This document shows positions 9,249 through 16,182 of a DNA stretch of 64,000 nt, piece after piece; the first letter of the stretch is position 1; every line of letters begins with the position of its first letter. A model generated the notes under the pieces. The model saw only the letters and a program-made list of their open reading frames with translations, did not search any database and was not told the origin of the DNA. The translations under genes and the position numbers were made by a program. Source of the DNA: Pseudoclavibacter sp. AY1F1 (GTDB lineage Bacteria > Actinomycetota > Actinomycetes > Actinomycetales > Microbacteriaceae); assembly GCF_002931075.1 (NCBI RefSeq), contig NZ_PSTQ01000008.1, forward strand, positions 1 through 64,000, given 5' to 3'.

Positions 9249-11075
9249 CTAGCTGTCGTAGCGCTTCTTGTACGGGCGGTCACCCGAGTCGCGCGACGGG
9301 CCGCGGTCCGGCGTCAGCTCGATGAGCTTGCCGGAGATGCGGGTGCCGGTGAGCTTGTCGAGCACGTCGTTCGACAGATCGGCCGGCAGCTCCACAAGCG
9401 AGAAGCCGGGGCGGATGTCGATCGCGCCGAAGTCGTCGCGGCTGAGGCCACCCTCGTTCGCGAGCGCGCCCACGATCTGGCGGGGCTCCACCTTGTGGCG
9501 CTTGCCCACCGCGAGGCGGTACATGGCCATGGGCTTGCCGTTCGAGCGCGAACGGCGTGGTGCCCGCTCGCCGCCGTCGCGACCACCGCGGTCGCCGCCG
9601 CGCGAGCTGCCACGACTGTCGCCGCCGCCCTCGCGCTCACGGCGCTCCTTGCGCTCCGCCTGCTCGCGCTGGTTGCGCTCGAAGCGCTCCTTGCGTTCGG
9701 CTTCGGCGTCGAGCAGCAACGGCGTCTCACCCTGGGCGACGATCGCGAGTGCCGCGGCGACATCGGACTCCGGCACGTCGTGGTGACGGACGTAGTGCTC
9801 GATGATGTCGCGGAACTTCTCGACGCGGTCGGTCTGCGTGAGCGCCTCGCTGATGGCGTCGTCGAAGCGCGTGAGGCGCGTCGTGTTGACGTCGTCGACG
9901 CTGGGGAGCTGCATCTGCGTGAGCTCCTGCTTGGTGGCCTTTTCGATCTGGCCGAGCAGGTAGCGCTCACGCGGGGTGATGAAGCTGATGGCGTCGCCCG
10001 TGCGACCCGCGCGCCCCGTGCGGCCGATGCGGTGCACGTACGACTCGGTGTCGGTGGGGATGTCGAAGTTCACGACGTGGCTGATGCGCTCGACGTCGAG
10101 GCCGCGCGCGGCGACATCGGTGGCGACGAGGATGTCGAGCTTGCCCGACTTCAGCTGGTTGACGGTGCGCTCGCGCTGCACTTGCGCCACGTCGCCGTTG
10201 ATGGCTGCAGCGGAGTACCCGCGGGCTCGGAGCTTCTCAGCGAGGCCTTCTGTCTCGTTCTTCGTGCGAACGAAGATGATCATTCCCTCGAAGTTCTCGA
10301 CCTCGAGGATGCGCGTGAGCGCGTCGACCTTCTGCGCGTAGCTCACGATGAGGTACCGCTGGGTGATCGTCGACGAGGTCGTGGTCTTGGTCTTGACCGT
10401 GATCTCGGCGGGATCGTTGAGGTACTTCTTGGAGATGCGGCGGATCTGGGATGGCATGGTCGCGGAGAACAGCGCGACCTGCTTCGTATCAGGAGTGTCG
10501 GCGAGGATCGTCTCGACGTCCTCCGCGAAGCCCATCTTGAGCATCTCGTCGGCCTCGTCGAGCACGAGGAACTTGAGCTCGCTCAGGTCGAGCGTGCCCT
10601 TCGAGAGGTGGTCCATGATGCGACCGGGGGTTCCGACGACGATGTGCACGCCGCGGCGGAGCGCGGAGAGCTGGACGCCGTAGCCCTGGCCGCCGTAGAT
10701 GGGGAGAACGTGCACGCCGCGCATGCGCGCCGCGTACTTCTCGAACGCCTCACACACCTGGAGTGCGAGTTCGCGGGTCGGGGCGAGCACAAGCGCCTGA
10801 GGCGTCTTCTGGTCGACGTCGAGCTGGGCGAGGATGGGCAGCGCGAACGCGGCGGTCTTGCCGGTTCCCGTCTGGGCGAGGCCGACGACGTCGCGGCCTT
10901 CGAGGAGGGTGGGGATCGTCGCGGCCTGGATGGCGGACGGCGTCTCGTACCCGACGTCGCTGAGGACCTTGAGTACGGGCCCGTCAAGACCGAGATCGGC
11001 GAATGTAGGCGCGGCCTGGGCCTCTTCGGAGGGAGCCTCGGCCTCGGTCTGAACGGAAGAATTGCTAGAAGTCAC
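9249..11075 (-). CDS. DEAD-box ATP-dependent RNA helicase (DeaD/CsdA type)
   Basis: A 608-residue RNA helicase that remodels structured RNA, typically in ribosome assembly and cold adaptation. Core motifs: Q-motif around residues 42-52 (TPSAIQ), motif I AQTGTGKT 67-74, motif Ia PTREL near 99, motif II DEAD 173-176, motif III SAT 204-206, motif VI HRIGRTGRAGR near residue 345. A basic, Gly/Arg/Ser-rich linker follows, then a C-terminal DbpA-type RNA-recognition domain (about 525-595, 'MYRLAVGKRHKVEPRQIVG' region). The 5' end overlaps the TetR gene's 3' end by 11 bp, so some expression may be coupled to that regulator. Confidence 0.93.
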   Translation of the reverse strand: MTSSNSSVQTEAEAPSEEAQAAPTFADLGLDGPVLKVLSDVGYETPSAIQAATIPTLLEGRDVVGLAQTGTGKTAAFALPILAQLDVDQKTPQALVLAPTRELALQVCEAFEKYAARMRGVHVLPIYGGQGYGVQLSALRRGVHIVVGTPGRIMDHLSKGTLDLSELKFLVLDEADEMLKMGFAEDVETILADTPDTKQVALFSATMPSQIRRISKKYLNDPAEITVKTKTTTSSTITQRYLIVSYAQKVDALTRILEVENFEGMIIFVRTKNETEGLAEKLRARGYSAAAINGDVAQVQRERTVNQLKSGKLDILVATDVAARGLDVERISHVVNFDIPTDTESYVHRIGRTGRAGRTGDAISFITPRERYLLGQIEKATKQELTQMQLPSVDDVNTTRLTRFDDAISEALTQTDRVEKFRDIIEHYVRHHDVPESDVAAALAIVAQGETPLLLDAEAERKERFERNQREQAERKERREREGGGDSRGSSRGGDRGGRDGGERAPRRSRSNGKPMAMYRLAVGKRHKVEPRQIVGALANEGGLSRDDFGAIDIRPGFSLVELPADLSNDVLDKLTGTRISGKLIELTPDRGPSRDSGDRPYKKRYDS

Positions 11076-11706
11076 GCTTTAGACTAGTCGTTTCTGTAGA
11101 TTTTTGGGCAGTTTCAACTCTGAGTATCGCATCAAGGACTGATCGAAGCAGGTCCGGGCGATTCGCGTCTCTCCCCCAGCGCACGAGTGCGTGGGCGTTG
11201 AGGCCGTCGATCATGCCGAGGATCTGCCACGCGACGGCATCCGCCACCCCGTCGCGGACGCTGAATTCTCCGGCCGAACTGCCGTCGACGATGATGCGCG
11301 TGATGGCTGCGTGCCATCGGTCCATCTCGGCCCGCACCCCCTCGGCGAGCGTGTCGTTGCGGCGTCCGAGCGACCACCCGTCGACCCACGCGAGGGTCAC
11401 GGCGTCGCGACTGCCGTCGAGGAGGGTGCTGACGAGCAGGTCGAGCTTCTCGGCGGCGGACGCGACAGGCGAGAGCTGCACCTCGAGGTCATCGAGCTCG
11501 CCGCCCACGATTGCCCTGAATGTGGAGGTGACGAGCTCGTCCATGTTGGGTTCGTAGTGGGCGACGAGGGCTGGCGCGACGCCGATGCGCGTCGCGACGG
11601 CGCGCAGGGTGACACCTGCGAGCCCTTCTTCGAGGGCGAGTGCGATTGCGGCCGCGGTGATGTCGGCGCGACGCTCGGCTGCTGGCTTCCTGATGGCTCT
11701 TGACAC
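11065..11706 (-). CDS. TetR-family transcriptional repressor
   Basis: A 213-residue TetR/AcrR regulator. The N-terminal helix-turn-helix spans roughly residues 10-58 (ITAAAIALALEEG ... VTLRAVATRIGVAPALVAHYE); the rest is a helical ligand/dimer domain. The start is GTG. It is divergent from the agmatine deiminase gene, and the 80-bp spacer between them contains a perfect 9-bp-arm palindrome, so autoregulation plus control of the agmatine deiminase-amidase operon is likely (inference). The ligand may be agmatine or a related amine. Its 3' end overlaps the downstream helicase gene by 11 bp. Confidence 0.88.
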   Translation of the reverse strand: MSRAIRKPAAERRADITAAAIALALEEGLAGVTLRAVATRIGVAPALVAHYEPNMDELVTSTFRAIVGGELDDLEVQLSPVASAAEKLDLLVSTLLDGSRDAVTLAWVDGWSLGRRNDTLAEGVRAEMDRWHAAITRIIVDGSSAGEFSVRDGVADAVAWQILGMIDGLNAHALVRWGRDANRPDLLRSVLDAILRVETAQKSTETTSLKRDF

Positions 11707-11738
11707 GATGTCTCGAGTCTACGTACTCTTCGAGCACT

Positions 11739-11758
11739 TGTTGATCACTTGATCAACA
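11739..11758. promoter_or_regulatory. Palindromic TetR operator between the divergent genes
   Basis: Perfect inverted repeat TGTTGATCA - CT - TGATCAACA in the spacer between the TetR gene and the agmatine deiminase gene. A candidate promoter for the rightward operon overlaps it: TTGATC at 11741-11746 and TGTATC at 11764-11769, spacer 17 bp. A bound repressor would therefore block the -35 element. The palindrome is direct observation; its binding protein is inferred from position. Confidence 0.75.
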
Positions 11759-11787
11759 GAGGCTGTATCGACCTGGAGGACCCGGAC

Positions 11788-12846
11788 ATGGCTTGGAAGA
11801 TGCCCGCCGAGACGGCGCCGCACGATCGCACCTGGATGGCCTTCCCCCGCGAAGGGATCACGCTCGGCGACACCGCCGCGCAGCGCGAAGCAGGCTACGC
11901 CGCCTGGACAGCCGTCGCCCACGCCGTCGCGCGCTTCGAGCCCGTCACCATGGTCGTCGACCCGAGCGAGCTCGCCCGCGCCCGACGCATGCTCGGCGAG
12001 GAGATCGAGATTCTCGAGGCCCCACTCGACGAGTTCTGGATGCGCGACATCGGCCCCACGTTCGTCACCGACGACAACCGGCCCGGCGTGCTCGGCGCCG
12101 TCGACTGGATCTTCAACGGCTGGGGCGCCCCGGCCTGGGCGGAGTGGCAGAAGTCGGCGGGCATTGGTCGCTTCGTCGCGGAGGCCAGCGGCGCCGAGCT
12201 CGTGAGCTCGCTCCTCGTGAACGAGGGCGGCGGCATCCATGTCGACGGCGAGGGAACTGTCCTCGCGACTGAAACGGTGCAGCTCGATCCACGCAGGAAC
12301 CCGCTCGCAGACAAGACGCGAGTCGAGGCCGAGTTCGCACGGACGCTCGGCACCACGCGCACGATCTGGCTGCCGCGCGGACTCACCCGCGACTATGACG
12401 AGTTCGGCACGAACGGGCACGTCGACATCGTCGCCACACTCACCGCTCCCGGCACCCTGCTGCTGCACGAGCAGCTCGACCCGGAGCATCCAGACCACGC
12501 GGTTGTCGCCGAACTGCGCGAGCACCTCTCCGGCCAGCGGGACGCGGCTGGCCGGAAGCTCGAGGTCGTCGGCATCCCTGCGCCGAGCACGCTGCGCGAC
12601 GAGGAGGGGTTCGTCGACTGGAGCTACGTCAACCATCTCGTCACGAACGACGGCGTCGTCGCGTGCGGCTTCGACGACGAGGCGGCGGATGCGCGGGCGC
12701 GCGAGGTGCTCGAGTCCGTCTACCCGGGGCGCACGGTCGTCTCAGTCGACGCCCGCGAGCTGTTCGCGCGTGGCGGCGGCATCCACTGCATCACGCAGCA
12801 GCAGCCAAGCCTCAGCCCCTCGACTGCAGACGGAGGCCGGCCATGA
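11788..12846 (+). CDS. aguA: Agmatine deiminase (peptidylarginine-deiminase family)
   Basis: A 352-residue guanidino-modifying enzyme predicted to convert agmatine to N-carbamoylputrescine and ammonia in the cytoplasm. Family signature residues are visible: 'WMRDIGPTFV' near residue 85, 'NEGGGIHVDG' near 145, 'NGHVDI' near 200, and the catalytic cysteine in GGGIHCITQQQP (about C334). The start at 11788 is chosen because GGAGG lies 8 bp upstream; an earlier TTG at 11749 lies inside the operator and is unlikely. It overlaps the downstream amidase by 4 bp (ATGA). The gene symbol reflects family and could also cover related deiminases. Confidence 0.87.
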   Translation: MAWKMPAETAPHDRTWMAFPREGITLGDTAAQREAGYAAWTAVAHAVARFEPVTMVVDPSELARARRMLGEEIEILEAPLDEFWMRDIGPTFVTDDNRPGVLGAVDWIFNGWGAPAWAEWQKSAGIGRFVAEASGAELVSSLLVNEGGGIHVDGEGTVLATETVQLDPRRNPLADKTRVEAEFARTLGTTRTIWLPRGLTRDYDEFGTNGHVDIVATLTAPGTLLLHEQLDPEHPDHAVVAELREHLSGQRDAAGRKLEVVGIPAPSTLRDEEGFVDWSYVNHLVTNDGVVACGFDDEAADARAREVLESVYPGRTVVSVDARELFARGGGIHCITQQQPSLSPSTADGGRP

Positions 12847-14558
12847 CCTTCGACGTCGTGGAAGCGAGCATCGCCCAGCTGCGTGAGGCGCTCGAGAACG
12901 GCGGGGTCACGAGCGCGGGTCTCGTCGAGGCGTACCAGGCGCGCATCGCGGCCTTCGACGCCGCGGGGCCCAAGCTCAACTCGGTGGTCGTCGCGAACCC
13001 CTCCGCGCTCGAGGAGGCGCACGCCTCTGACGAGCGACGCGCCAACGGCAGCCCGCTCGGGCCGCTCGACGGGATTCCGTACACGGCGAAGGACAGCTAC
13101 CTCGTCGAGGGCCTGACCGCCGCATCCGGGAGCCCCGCGTTCGCGGACCTCGTCGCCCAGCGCGACGCCTTCACGATCGAGCGCCTCCGCGCCGGCGGCG
13201 CGATCTGCCTCGGCCTCACGAACATGCCGCCCATGGCCAACGGCGGCATGCAGCGCGGCGAGTACGGCCGAGCCGAGAGCCCGTACAACGCGGCGTTCCT
13301 CACAAGCGCATTCGGGTCCGGCTCCTCGAACGGCTCCGGCACCGCGACGGCCGCGAGCTTCGCGGCGTTCGGTCTCGGCGAGGAGACGTGGTCGAGCGGC
13401 CGCGCGCCCGCCTCGAACAACGCGCTGTGCGCCTACACGCCCTCGCGAGGCGTCATCTCCGTGCGCGGCAACTGGCCACTCGTGCCGACCATGGACGTCG
13501 TCGTGCCCCACTCGAGGTCGATGGCCGACCTGCTCGAGGTGCTCGACGTCGTCGTCGCCGACGATGCCGAGACGCGAGGCGACTTCTGGCGCGCGCAGCC
13601 CTGGGTGCGCATCCCCCGCTCCTCCGAGGTACGGCCGGCCTCGTATGTGGCCATGTTGCCGTCCAACCAGGCGGATGCGCGGGCGACGCTCGCCGGCACC
13701 CGCATCGGCGTGCCTCGCATGTACATTAACGCCGACCCGGAAGCCGGGACGGCGGAGAAGCCCGGGATCGGGGGCCCTACCGGCCAGAGGATCGACACGC
13801 GTCGATCCATCATCGAGCTGTGGGAGTCGGCCCGTGCCGACCTGGAAGCCGCCGGTGCCACGGTCGTGGAGGTCGACTTCCCCGTCGTCTCGAACTACGA
13901 GGGCGATCGGCCAGGAGCCCCGAACATCTTCACGCGGGGCCTCGTCACACCCGAGTACCTGCAGCGAGAGATCGTCGACCTGTCGGCGTGGGGCTGGGAC
14001 GATTTCCTCGCCGCGAACGGCGACCCGCAGTTGAACTCGCTCACGCAGGTCGACGGCACACGCATCTTCCCGCACCCGGACGGTGCCCTCCCCGACCGTT
14101 ACACGGGCTTCGACGACGACATCGCGACGTACCCGGACCACGTCCGCGAGCATCCTGTCGCGTCGTTCACGGACATCCCGGAGCTCGCCGACGGCGTGCG
14201 CGGGCTCGAGGAGACACGACGCCTCGACCTCGAGGACTGGCTCGTCTCCGAGCGCATCGACGCCGTCGCCTTCCCGGCCGTCGCAGATGTCGGGCCGGCC
14301 GATATGGACGTCAACGAGTCCTCCGCCGACCTCGGCTGGCGCAATGGAGTGTGGGTCGCGAACGGCAACCTCGCTATCCGGCACCTCGGCATCCCGACCG
14401 TGACCGTGCCGATGGGCACGACCTCCGACATCGGGATGCCTGTCGGCCTGACCTTCGCTGGCCGGGCCTACGACGACACGTCGCTTCTGCGGATGGCGGC
14501 AGCCTTCGAGGCGACCGGCGAACGCCGCACGGAGCCCCCGCGCACGCCTCGCCTCTGA
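12843..14558 (+). CDS. Amidase-signature family amidohydrolase
   Basis: A 571-residue amidase-signature enzyme. The Ser-cisSer-Lys triad can be placed: Lys83 in YTAKDS, cis-Ser in GSGSSNG (about 161-162), and nucleophile Ser185 in WSSGRAPAS, where most relatives have GGSIRxPA. The mid-region and C-terminus ('GIPTVTVPMGTTSDIGMPVGLTF') match the family. Tight coupling to the agmatine deiminase suggests that it might hydrolyse N-carbamoylputrescine, normally the job of a nitrilase-type AguB; this is inference. A general amide or urea-amide hydrolase is the alternative. Confidence 0.85.
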   Translation: MTFDVVEASIAQLREALENGGVTSAGLVEAYQARIAAFDAAGPKLNSVVVANPSALEEAHASDERRANGSPLGPLDGIPYTAKDSYLVEGLTAASGSPAFADLVAQRDAFTIERLRAGGAICLGLTNMPPMANGGMQRGEYGRAESPYNAAFLTSAFGSGSSNGSGTATAASFAAFGLGEETWSSGRAPASNNALCAYTPSRGVISVRGNWPLVPTMDVVVPHSRSMADLLEVLDVVVADDAETRGDFWRAQPWVRIPRSSEVRPASYVAMLPSNQADARATLAGTRIGVPRMYINADPEAGTAEKPGIGGPTGQRIDTRRSIIELWESARADLEAAGATVVEVDFPVVSNYEGDRPGAPNIFTRGLVTPEYLQREIVDLSAWGWDDFLAANGDPQLNSLTQVDGTRIFPHPDGALPDRYTGFDDDIATYPDHVREHPVASFTDIPELADGVRGLEETRRLDLEDWLVSERIDAVAFPAVADVGPADMDVNESSADLGWRNGVWVANGNLAIRHLGIPTVTVPMGTTSDIGMPVGLTFAGRAYDDTSLLRMAAAFEATGERRTEPPRTPRL

Positions 14559-14679: not shown

Positions 14680-16182
14680 CTACTTCTGCGGCTTGACGAT
14701 CGCAAGAGCGCCGGTCTCCGCGAACTCGCGCTCGACGTCGTCGTCGGTCGCGCTTCCCGGCTTGTGCGTCAGCAGGCTGACGACGACCGATACGACGAGG
14801 TTCAGGATGAACCCCGGGATGATCTCGTACAAGTCAGTGCCAAGTGCTGACCAGATGAAGACCGTCGCAGCACCGGTCACCATGCCCGCCAACGCACCCC
14901 AGTTGGTGAGCTTCTTCCAATACAGGCTGAGCAGAATGATCGGGCCGAAGGCGGCACCGAACCCGGCCCACGCGAAGCCGACAAGCGCGAGGATCGAATC
15001 CGAGGGGTTGAGGGCGAGGATGCCGGCCACGATGGCGACACCGAGCACACCTCCACGACCTGCGAGCACCAGAGTCTTCGCGCTTGGCTTGCGCTTCGCG
15101 ACCACCATGAACAGATCTTCGACGAGCGCGGAAGAGCAGACGATGAGCTGGCTCGAGATGGTGCTCATGATGGCCGCGAGCACTGCGGCGAGAATGAATC
15201 CGCTGACCAGCGGGTGGAACAGAACCTGTGCCATGAGGAGCACGACCGTCTCAGGGTCCGAGACGTCCACTCCGTTCTCCTGCACGTACGCGACGGCCAC
15301 GAGTCCCGCGATGACTGCGCCGAGAAGCGACAGGAACATCCACGAGATGCCGATGCGTCGCCCTGCGATCGCTGAATGCGAGTCACGCAGCGCCATGAAG
15401 CGCACGATGATATGCGGCTGTCCGACGTAGCCGAGGCCCCAGCCGAGCGCCGAGATGATGCCGATGATGACGGGCCAGCTCAGCTCCTCCGGGATGAGAC
15501 CCGTGTGATCGACGCCAGAGGCGACAATGGCTTCGCTCACGCCGCCGAAACCTCCGAGGGAGATGATCGCGACTACGGGGATCGCAAGGAGGGCGAGCAG
15601 CATCATCATGCCCTGCACGACATCTGTGAACGTTGCACCGAGGAAGCCGCCGAAAAGCGTGTAGGCGAGTGTCACTCCTGCCACGAGGAGCATCCCCGTC
15701 AGGTAGTCGCCGTCGAAACTGCTCTCGAAGAACACGCCACCGGCCACCATGCCAGATGAGATGTAGAACGTGAAGAAGACGAGGATCACGAGGCCGCTGG
15801 CTATCCGCAGTGCCCGCGATTTGTCGTGCAGGCGGTTCTCGAAGTAGCTCGGAACCGTGATCGAGTTGTTCGCGACCTCTGTGTAGGCGCGCAGCCGCGG
15901 TGCGACGAATCGCCAGTTGAGGTACGCGCCGATGAGGAGGCCGATACCGATCCACGCTTCGAAGAGGCCAGAGACGAAGATGGCCCCCGGGAGGCCCATC
16001 ATGAGCCAGCCGGACATGTCGGAGGCACCAGCGCTCAGTGCTGCCGTGCCCGGACTCAGGCTTCGTCCCCCGAGCATGTAGTCCTCGTGGTCCTTGGTCT
16101 GGCGGAACGCGTAGAGGCCAATGCCCACCATCGCCGCGAAATAGATCGCGAGAGCGATGAGCTGGAAGGTCAGATCGGACAT
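14680..16182 (-). CDS. putP: Sodium/proline symporter (SSS family)
   Basis: A 500-residue solute:sodium symporter with about 13 membrane helices. The PutP-like profile is clear: 'DHEDYMLGGRSLSP' in the first loop, 'ASDMSGWLMMGLPGA' in helix 2 with the Na+-site residues, and 'GYVGQPHIIVRFMA' in the central region. It imports proline with Na+, for catabolism or as an osmoprotectant. The ATG is preceded by AGAAGGAG. It is divergent from a LysR regulator that may control it, and convergent with the amidase. Confidence 0.88.
   Translation of the reverse strand: MSDLTFQLIALAIYFAAMVGIGLYAFRQTKDHEDYMLGGRSLSPGTAALSAGASDMSGWLMMGLPGAIFVSGLFEAWIGIGLLIGAYLNWRFVAPRLRAYTEVANNSITVPSYFENRLHDKSRALRIASGLVILVFFTFYISSGMVAGGVFFESSFDGDYLTGMLLVAGVTLAYTLFGGFLGATFTDVVQGMMMLLALLAIPVVAIISLGGFGGVSEAIVASGVDHTGLIPEELSWPVIIGIISALGWGLGYVGQPHIIVRFMALRDSHSAIAGRRIGISWMFLSLLGAVIAGLVAVAYVQENGVDVSDPETVVLLMAQVLFHPLVSGFILAAVLAAIMSTISSQLIVCSSALVEDLFMVVAKRKPSAKTLVLAGRGGVLGVAIVAGILALNPSDSILALVGFAWAGFGAAFGPIILLSLYWKKLTNWGALAGMVTGAATVFIWSALGTDLYEIIPGFILNLVVSVVVSLLTHKPGSATDDDVEREFAETGALAIVKPQK

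Follow-up and report, generated by a model that had tools for sequence, protein, structure and literature searches.

A predicted aguA–aguY operon for the conversion of agmatine to putrescine in Pseudoclavibacter sp. AY1F1

Introduction

The amidase encoded next to the agmatine deiminase gene aguA was named AguY by Li, Baniasadi, Phillips and Michael (Biochem J, July 2025, PMC12283126). According to the main text of that article, aguY adjoins aguA in Proteobacteria and Actinomycetota, and conversion of N-carbamoylputrescine to putrescine was demonstrated for the proteins of Shewanella oneidensis and Microterricola gilva. The kcat/Km values given there were 641,800 M−1 s−1 for M. gilva AguY (Km for N-carbamoylputrescine: 0.07 mM), 179,400 M−1 s−1 for S. 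oneidensis AguY and 82,500 M−1 s−1 for AguB of Pseudomonas aeruginosa, and Tse8 was nested among the AguY proteins, and derived from them, in the published tree. In the literature from 2024 on, a search combining AguY with carbamoylputrescine found no study beyond PMC12283126. Here we analyse a pair of genes, aguA and an amidase-signature gene, in the first 64,000 nucleotides of contig NZ_PSTQ01000008.1 of Pseudoclavibacter sp. AY1F1 (hereafter the window), together with a divergent tetR gene beside them. We consider it very probable that the pair forms a two-gene operon leading from agmatine to putrescine, in which AguY takes the role of AguB.

Results

The amidase belongs to the AguY family

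The window amidase scored 1038.1 bits on NCBIfam model NF005127 (PRK06565; cut-off 575) over residues 2–571, which places it in this family. Its sole Pfam match was Amidase (PF01425; 172 bits, cut-off 27), and no CN_hydrolase domain, the mark of AguB, was found in it. The closest solved structure was Tse8 of P. aeruginosa (PDB 6te4; 892.3 bits, residues 3–571), followed by a peptide amidase with 133.1 bits. Residues K83, S161, S162 and S185 were identical in all 72 rows of an alignment in which the window protein is present twice and eight sites were fetched twice. Going by how the triad is spaced in other enzymes with the amidase signature, we take K83-S161-S185 to be the catalytic triad (Ser-cisSer-Lys).

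Related loci were collected as the best 80 of 547 amidase loci, and the sample therefore leans to close relatives; all counts of related loci below refer to it. The nearest named relative was Pseudoclavibacter terrae, with an AguY 91% identical to that of the window over residues 1–571 and with tetR, aguA, aguY and putP in the same order. A taxonomy look-up placed both P. terrae and M. gilva in the Microbacteriaceae. Judged by Tse8 and PMC12283126, NF005127 would correspond to the AguY family, the link to M. gilva AguY running through Tse8, the family model and gene order.

With a type VI effector of P. aeruginosa as its closest solved structure, the amidase could be a Tse8-like antibacterial effector and not a metabolic enzyme. 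To our knowledge, type VI secretion is not to be expected in actinomycetes, which we count against such a function. The gene is moreover not unlinked to aguA, as a tse8 gene would be, but overlaps it, and the amidase genes of most relatives also adjoin aguA. The published tree, in which Tse8 arose from AguY (PMC12283126, main text), points in the same direction. We therefore regard an effector as extremely improbable and treat the protein as a metabolic AguY.

The genome holds no good candidate for a nitrilase-type AguB

Three nitrilase-superfamily genes were found in the assembly (4.10 Mb, completeness 100). On TIGR03381, the model for AguB (cut-off 410.25), two of them reached 84.1 and 86.6 bits, and the former scored better on the deaminated-glutathione amidase model, with 223.6 bits, still under the 355 of that model. 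The third, a membrane-rich open reading frame (ORF) of 556 amino acids that we took for Lnt by eye, was absent among the listed AguB-model matches of the genome, which comprise only the other two. Taken by itself, the curated cut-off for AguB discriminates poorly in this family, because it was passed in none of 199 Microbacteriaceae genomes, while 23 aguA copies in these genomes adjoin a nitrilase. Nitrilases adjoining aguA in relatives reached 177–224 bits on the same model, and those of the window genome are thus poorer candidates. On these scores, an AguB that is present but unlinked was ruled out; searches of the assembly for the nitrilase superfamily and with the AguB model yielded no good nitrilase-type candidate.

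A first-pass annotation of this DNA had remarked that a nitrilase-type AguB is missing beside aguA, and an amidase-signature gene indeed occupies that place. It had named the presence of a canonical aguB at another genomic site as one half of what would count against its reading; we searched for such a gene and did not find it. Its first explanation, a non-orthologous replacement of AguB, is supported and equals the published function of AguY, with M. gilva in the same bacterial family. The novelty which that explanation implied is unsupported, because the replacement of AguB by AguY is in print (PMC12283126, main text). Its second explanation, that the pathway ends with another carbamoyl-amine, is conceivable for this protein but not needed.

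aguA and aguY are paired across relatives

In 63 of the 80 related loci, aguA lay within 302 bases of the amidase gene, and a pairing so often kept is not due to chance. We also tallied matches to AguA, AguY and nitrilases in the same 199 Microbacteriaceae genomes. AguA was present in 100 genomes and above-cut-off AguY in 79; both occurred in 70, AguA only in 30, AguY only in nine and neither in 90 (Fisher p ~1e-19, uncorrected for kinship).

The 100 genomes with AguA were divided between two partners: 72 carried an AguY-family gene, 23 carried a nitrilase at most 715 bases from aguA, five had neither and none had both. The figure of 72 adds two genomes (G038 and G061) with AguY pieces below the cut-off, and the AguY counts include divergent, functionally uncharacterised members; the nitrilase matches listed include none below ~106 bits, so that a poorly scoring nitrilase beside aguA may have escaped the tally. 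One of the five genomes with neither partner (G094) had such a nitrilase on another contig. The tally, in which two pieces of one gene were merged in G108 and a 41-position piece was excluded in G198, held 108 AguA entries, 42 of which adjoin AguY, 23 a nitrilase and 43 neither, the last mostly with AguY elsewhere in the genome. The mutual exclusion of AguY and an adjacent nitrilase supports the published function of AguY.

Outside the pairing, AguY was seen without aguA in the fetched flanks (at most 8 kb per side) at L041, L070, L082, L094, L099, L103 and L109, which belong to Brevibacterium, Streptomyces, Kitasatospora and Yinghuangia. Three of these AguY genes (L070, L082 and L109) are directly preceded by a divergent ORF, by eye a TetR-like regulator.

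AguA, and observations that weigh against the pathway

The window AguA scored 339.5 bits on the Pfam model PAD_porph (cut-off 25), and the assembly contains one PAD_porph gene. Its best match in the PDB was agmatine deiminase 3h7c (207.8 bits). Residues D100, E159, H224, D226 and C347 (numbered from the TTG start), presumably the catalytic ones, were kept in 72, 72, 72, 73 and 72 of 73 aligned rows, respectively. The protein is most likely a member of the agmatine deiminase family that functions like AguA.

Several observations weigh against a pathway from agmatine to putrescine. Adjacent aguA was lacking in 17 of the 80 related amidase loci, and nine of the 79 genomes with AguY had no AguA match. 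On TIGR03380, the curated agmatine deiminase model, the window AguA scored 266.9 bits, below the cut-off of 381.8, and agmatine as its substrate is therefore not certified by this model. The same genome carries an agmatinase-like gene (L117:1474-2457; 230.2 bits on TIGR01230, cut-off 174.3), which may provide a second route from agmatine to putrescine and make the AguA–AguY route redundant. For the supply of agmatine, no arginine decarboxylase candidate above model cut-off was found in the genome, pyruvoyl-type enzymes not having been searched for; the decarboxylase candidates present are two OKR_DC_1 proteins and two proteins of the Orn/Arg decarboxylase fold.

The loci without adjacent aguA would fit a locus at which aguA and the amidase gene are unrelated neighbours. 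The 4-bp overlap of the two genes, their adjacency in the great part of the related loci, the strong co-occurrence of AguA and AguY and the exclusion of a nitrilase partner all argue for a functional pair, and we give the idea of unrelated neighbours almost no credence.

The low score on TIGR03380 raises a different question, namely whether the pair degrades another guanidino compound, with the amidase cutting the matching carbamoyl-amine and putrescine not being the main product. The separate agmatinase-like gene would be compatible with this, as would two related loci at which AguY directly adjoins a much diverged AguA-family protein (L014:3300-4274 and L101:6982-7956; 36% and 39% identical to the window AguA), possibly with a different guanidino substrate. 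However, the cut-off was also missed by all nine other AguA segments examined from the family (tblastn segments, short by a few end residues), including all four with a nitrilase partner; because the latter miss it too, the cut-off is just a strict one for these proteins. The conserved catalytic residues also speak for an ordinary AguA, and the Km of 0.07 mM of M. gilva AguY, a protein of the same bacterial family, is for N-carbamoylputrescine itself (PMC12283126, main text). Another guanidino substrate is thus very unlikely, and we retain agmatine and N-carbamoylputrescine as the substrates of the window enzymes.

Possible exchange of partners and a divergent clade

A tree of 71 AguA proteins was used to follow the partners. 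The label 'nitrilase-partnered' required nine changes, at least seven of them forced by well-supported branches, and the label 'AguY-adjacent' six changes, at least four of them so forced. The tree took in all 23 nitrilase-partnered copies, four of the five genomes with neither partner (G094 was left out), four copies at 3–4 kb from AguY, 13 of those farther from it and 26 of the 42 AguY-adjacent copies, which are thus undersampled; it has several long branches, and some of the label changes may be losses of linkage and not swaps. The window AguA and its same-genus relative fell into a supported clade of 39 rows, of which 25 were AguY-adjacent, nine nitrilase-partnered, four at 3–4 kb and one unlinked.

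In a tree of 63 AguY-family proteins, the window AguY stood deep within a clade rich in aguA-adjacent forms. A separate AguY-like clade (support 100/100) comprised nine proteins (L143-L145 and L147-L152) with 52–54% identity to the window AguY. Eight of the nine came from genomes without a PAD_porph match, and the ninth was a second copy in a genome with aguA–aguY. By eye, no conserved partner gene was seen near the divergent proteins in ten loci, the neighbours not having been scanned with a model library. Members of this clade should not carry the AguY annotation on sequence alone.

It is quite possible, if still somewhat short of probable, that AguA of the Microbacteriaceae repeatedly exchanged the AguB-like nitrilase and AguY as interchangeable modules, and that the divergent, mostly AguA-less clade took another ureido or amide substrate, which would make it a second, non-effector departure from AguY besides Tse8.

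A conserved palindrome between tetR and aguA

The TetR protein of the window contains TetR_N and TetR_C_6 domains, both above their cut-offs, and 42 of the 80 related loci had a TetR homologue upstream of the pair, encoded on the other strand. The palindrome between tetR and aguA was unique in its own genome at up to two mismatches (18-letter pattern; matches on both strands count as one site), and the regulator therefore looks local. We tested the pattern, derived from the window, on the tetR–aguA intergenic regions of 40 of these 42 loci, the window not being among them; L047 and L080, where over 900 bases separate tetR and aguA, were left out. In 38 of the 40 regions, the best version had no more than 5 of 18 mismatches, a perfect match being found in P. 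terrae, and in the other two regions it had six. In shuffled intergenic controls, 50 per region, the mean best mismatch was 8.1–9.3.

The divergent TetR is a probable repressor of the aguA–aguY operon, acting through the predicted operator at 11739–11758 and probably released by agmatine or N-carbamoylputrescine. Our search of the literature on regulators of this operon found nothing on point. The conserved palindrome offers a testable handle on aguA–aguY regulation.

At L080:3658, in Agromyces sp. NDB4Y10, an operator-like palindrome is still found beside tetR, with aguA at a distance of ~1.6 kb, an arrangement that would fit an insertion of DNA in between.

Layout of the locus

The features are listed in Table 1. 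The first-pass annotation had described a 4-bp overlap of aguA by the amidase gene, and the coordinates of both genes bear this out: it is exactly 4 bp long (ATGA, 12843–12846). The span of 11706–14558 that it gave for the pair is likewise right in its coordinates, except that, beginning at 11706, it includes the intergenic region. For aguA, the ATG at 11788 is the most plausible start codon; a longer alternative, from TTG 11749, begins within the intergenic palindrome.

Table 1. Features of the aguA–aguY locus (window coordinates)
Feature	Position	Strand	Evidence
tetR (divergent BetI-type TetR regulator, probable local aguA–aguY repressor)	11065..11706	-	TetR_N, TetR_C_6 above cut-offs
Predicted TetR operator TGTTGATCA-CT-TGATCAACA, 9-bp perfect arms	11739..11758	.	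Sequence pattern
GGAGG, likely aguA ribosome-binding site	11775..11779	+	8 bases upstream of ATG 11788
aguA (agmatine deiminase family, 352 aa from ATG 11788)	11788..12846	+	PAD_porph 339.5 bits; PDB 3h7c 207.8 bits
GGAGG, likely aguY ribosome-binding site, within aguA	12832..12836	+	6 bases upstream of ATG 12843
aguY (predicted amidase-signature N-carbamoylputrescine amidohydrolase, 571 aa)	12843..14558	+	NF005127 1038.1 bits; Tse8 6te4 892.3 bits

The next gene downstream of aguY encodes a PutP-type symporter (14680–16182, - strand). We ruled it out as a part of the system: it is convergent, its product scored 657.6 bits on the proline symporter model (cut-off 515.5), and a match was found in only one of the 80 relatives, P. 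terrae. The ORF past tetR was judged by eye to encode a DEAD-box helicase.

Discussion

In the proposed pathway, AguY would hydrolyse N-carbamoylputrescine to putrescine, ammonia and CO2, and would in this way do the job of the nitrilase-type AguB, to which it is unrelated. We infer the activity of the window AguY, the co-transcription of aguA and aguY, their regulation and the direction of flow (catabolic versus biosynthetic) from the genes and their relatives. For annotation, the matter can be regarded as settled: in many Actinomycetota, the gene annotated as 'amidase' next to aguA most likely supplies the last step of the route through agmatine deiminase, and a missing aguB in such genomes is therefore no gap in the pathway. 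The split between AguY and nitrilase partners across the family is a separate line of support for the published function.

Among the systems to which the locus can be compared, putrescine transcarbamylase of the agmatine deiminase system also uses the product of AguA (PMC12283126, main text) but, in contrast to AguY, yields carbamoyl phosphate; none is encoded beside aguA at the window locus, and no genome-wide search was made for it. AguB (TIGR03381) is predicted to share its reaction with the window AguY and belongs to an unrelated protein superfamily without a good candidate in this genome. Tse8 (PDB 6te4, 6yhv) is homologous to the window AguY over nearly its whole length, whereas its gene is not beside aguA and adjoins the immunity gene tsi8 (PMC12283126, main text).

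The closest counterpart is the AguA–AguY pathway of M. gilva and S. oneidensis, which has the same arrangement of aguA beside an amidase gene of the same protein family, M. gilva being also of the same bacterial family. Activity was measured there, whereas the window protein is known from its sequence. The main text of that article, figures excluded, does not mention Pseudoclavibacter, 'TetR' or 'operator', and the divergent tetR with its predicted operator is accordingly a feature of the window locus that this text does not describe. We conclude that the locus is an ordinary member of the AguA–AguY pathway described in 2025, to which our analysis makes two modest additions, the conserved, predicted site of a local regulator and the division of the family between two partners of AguA.

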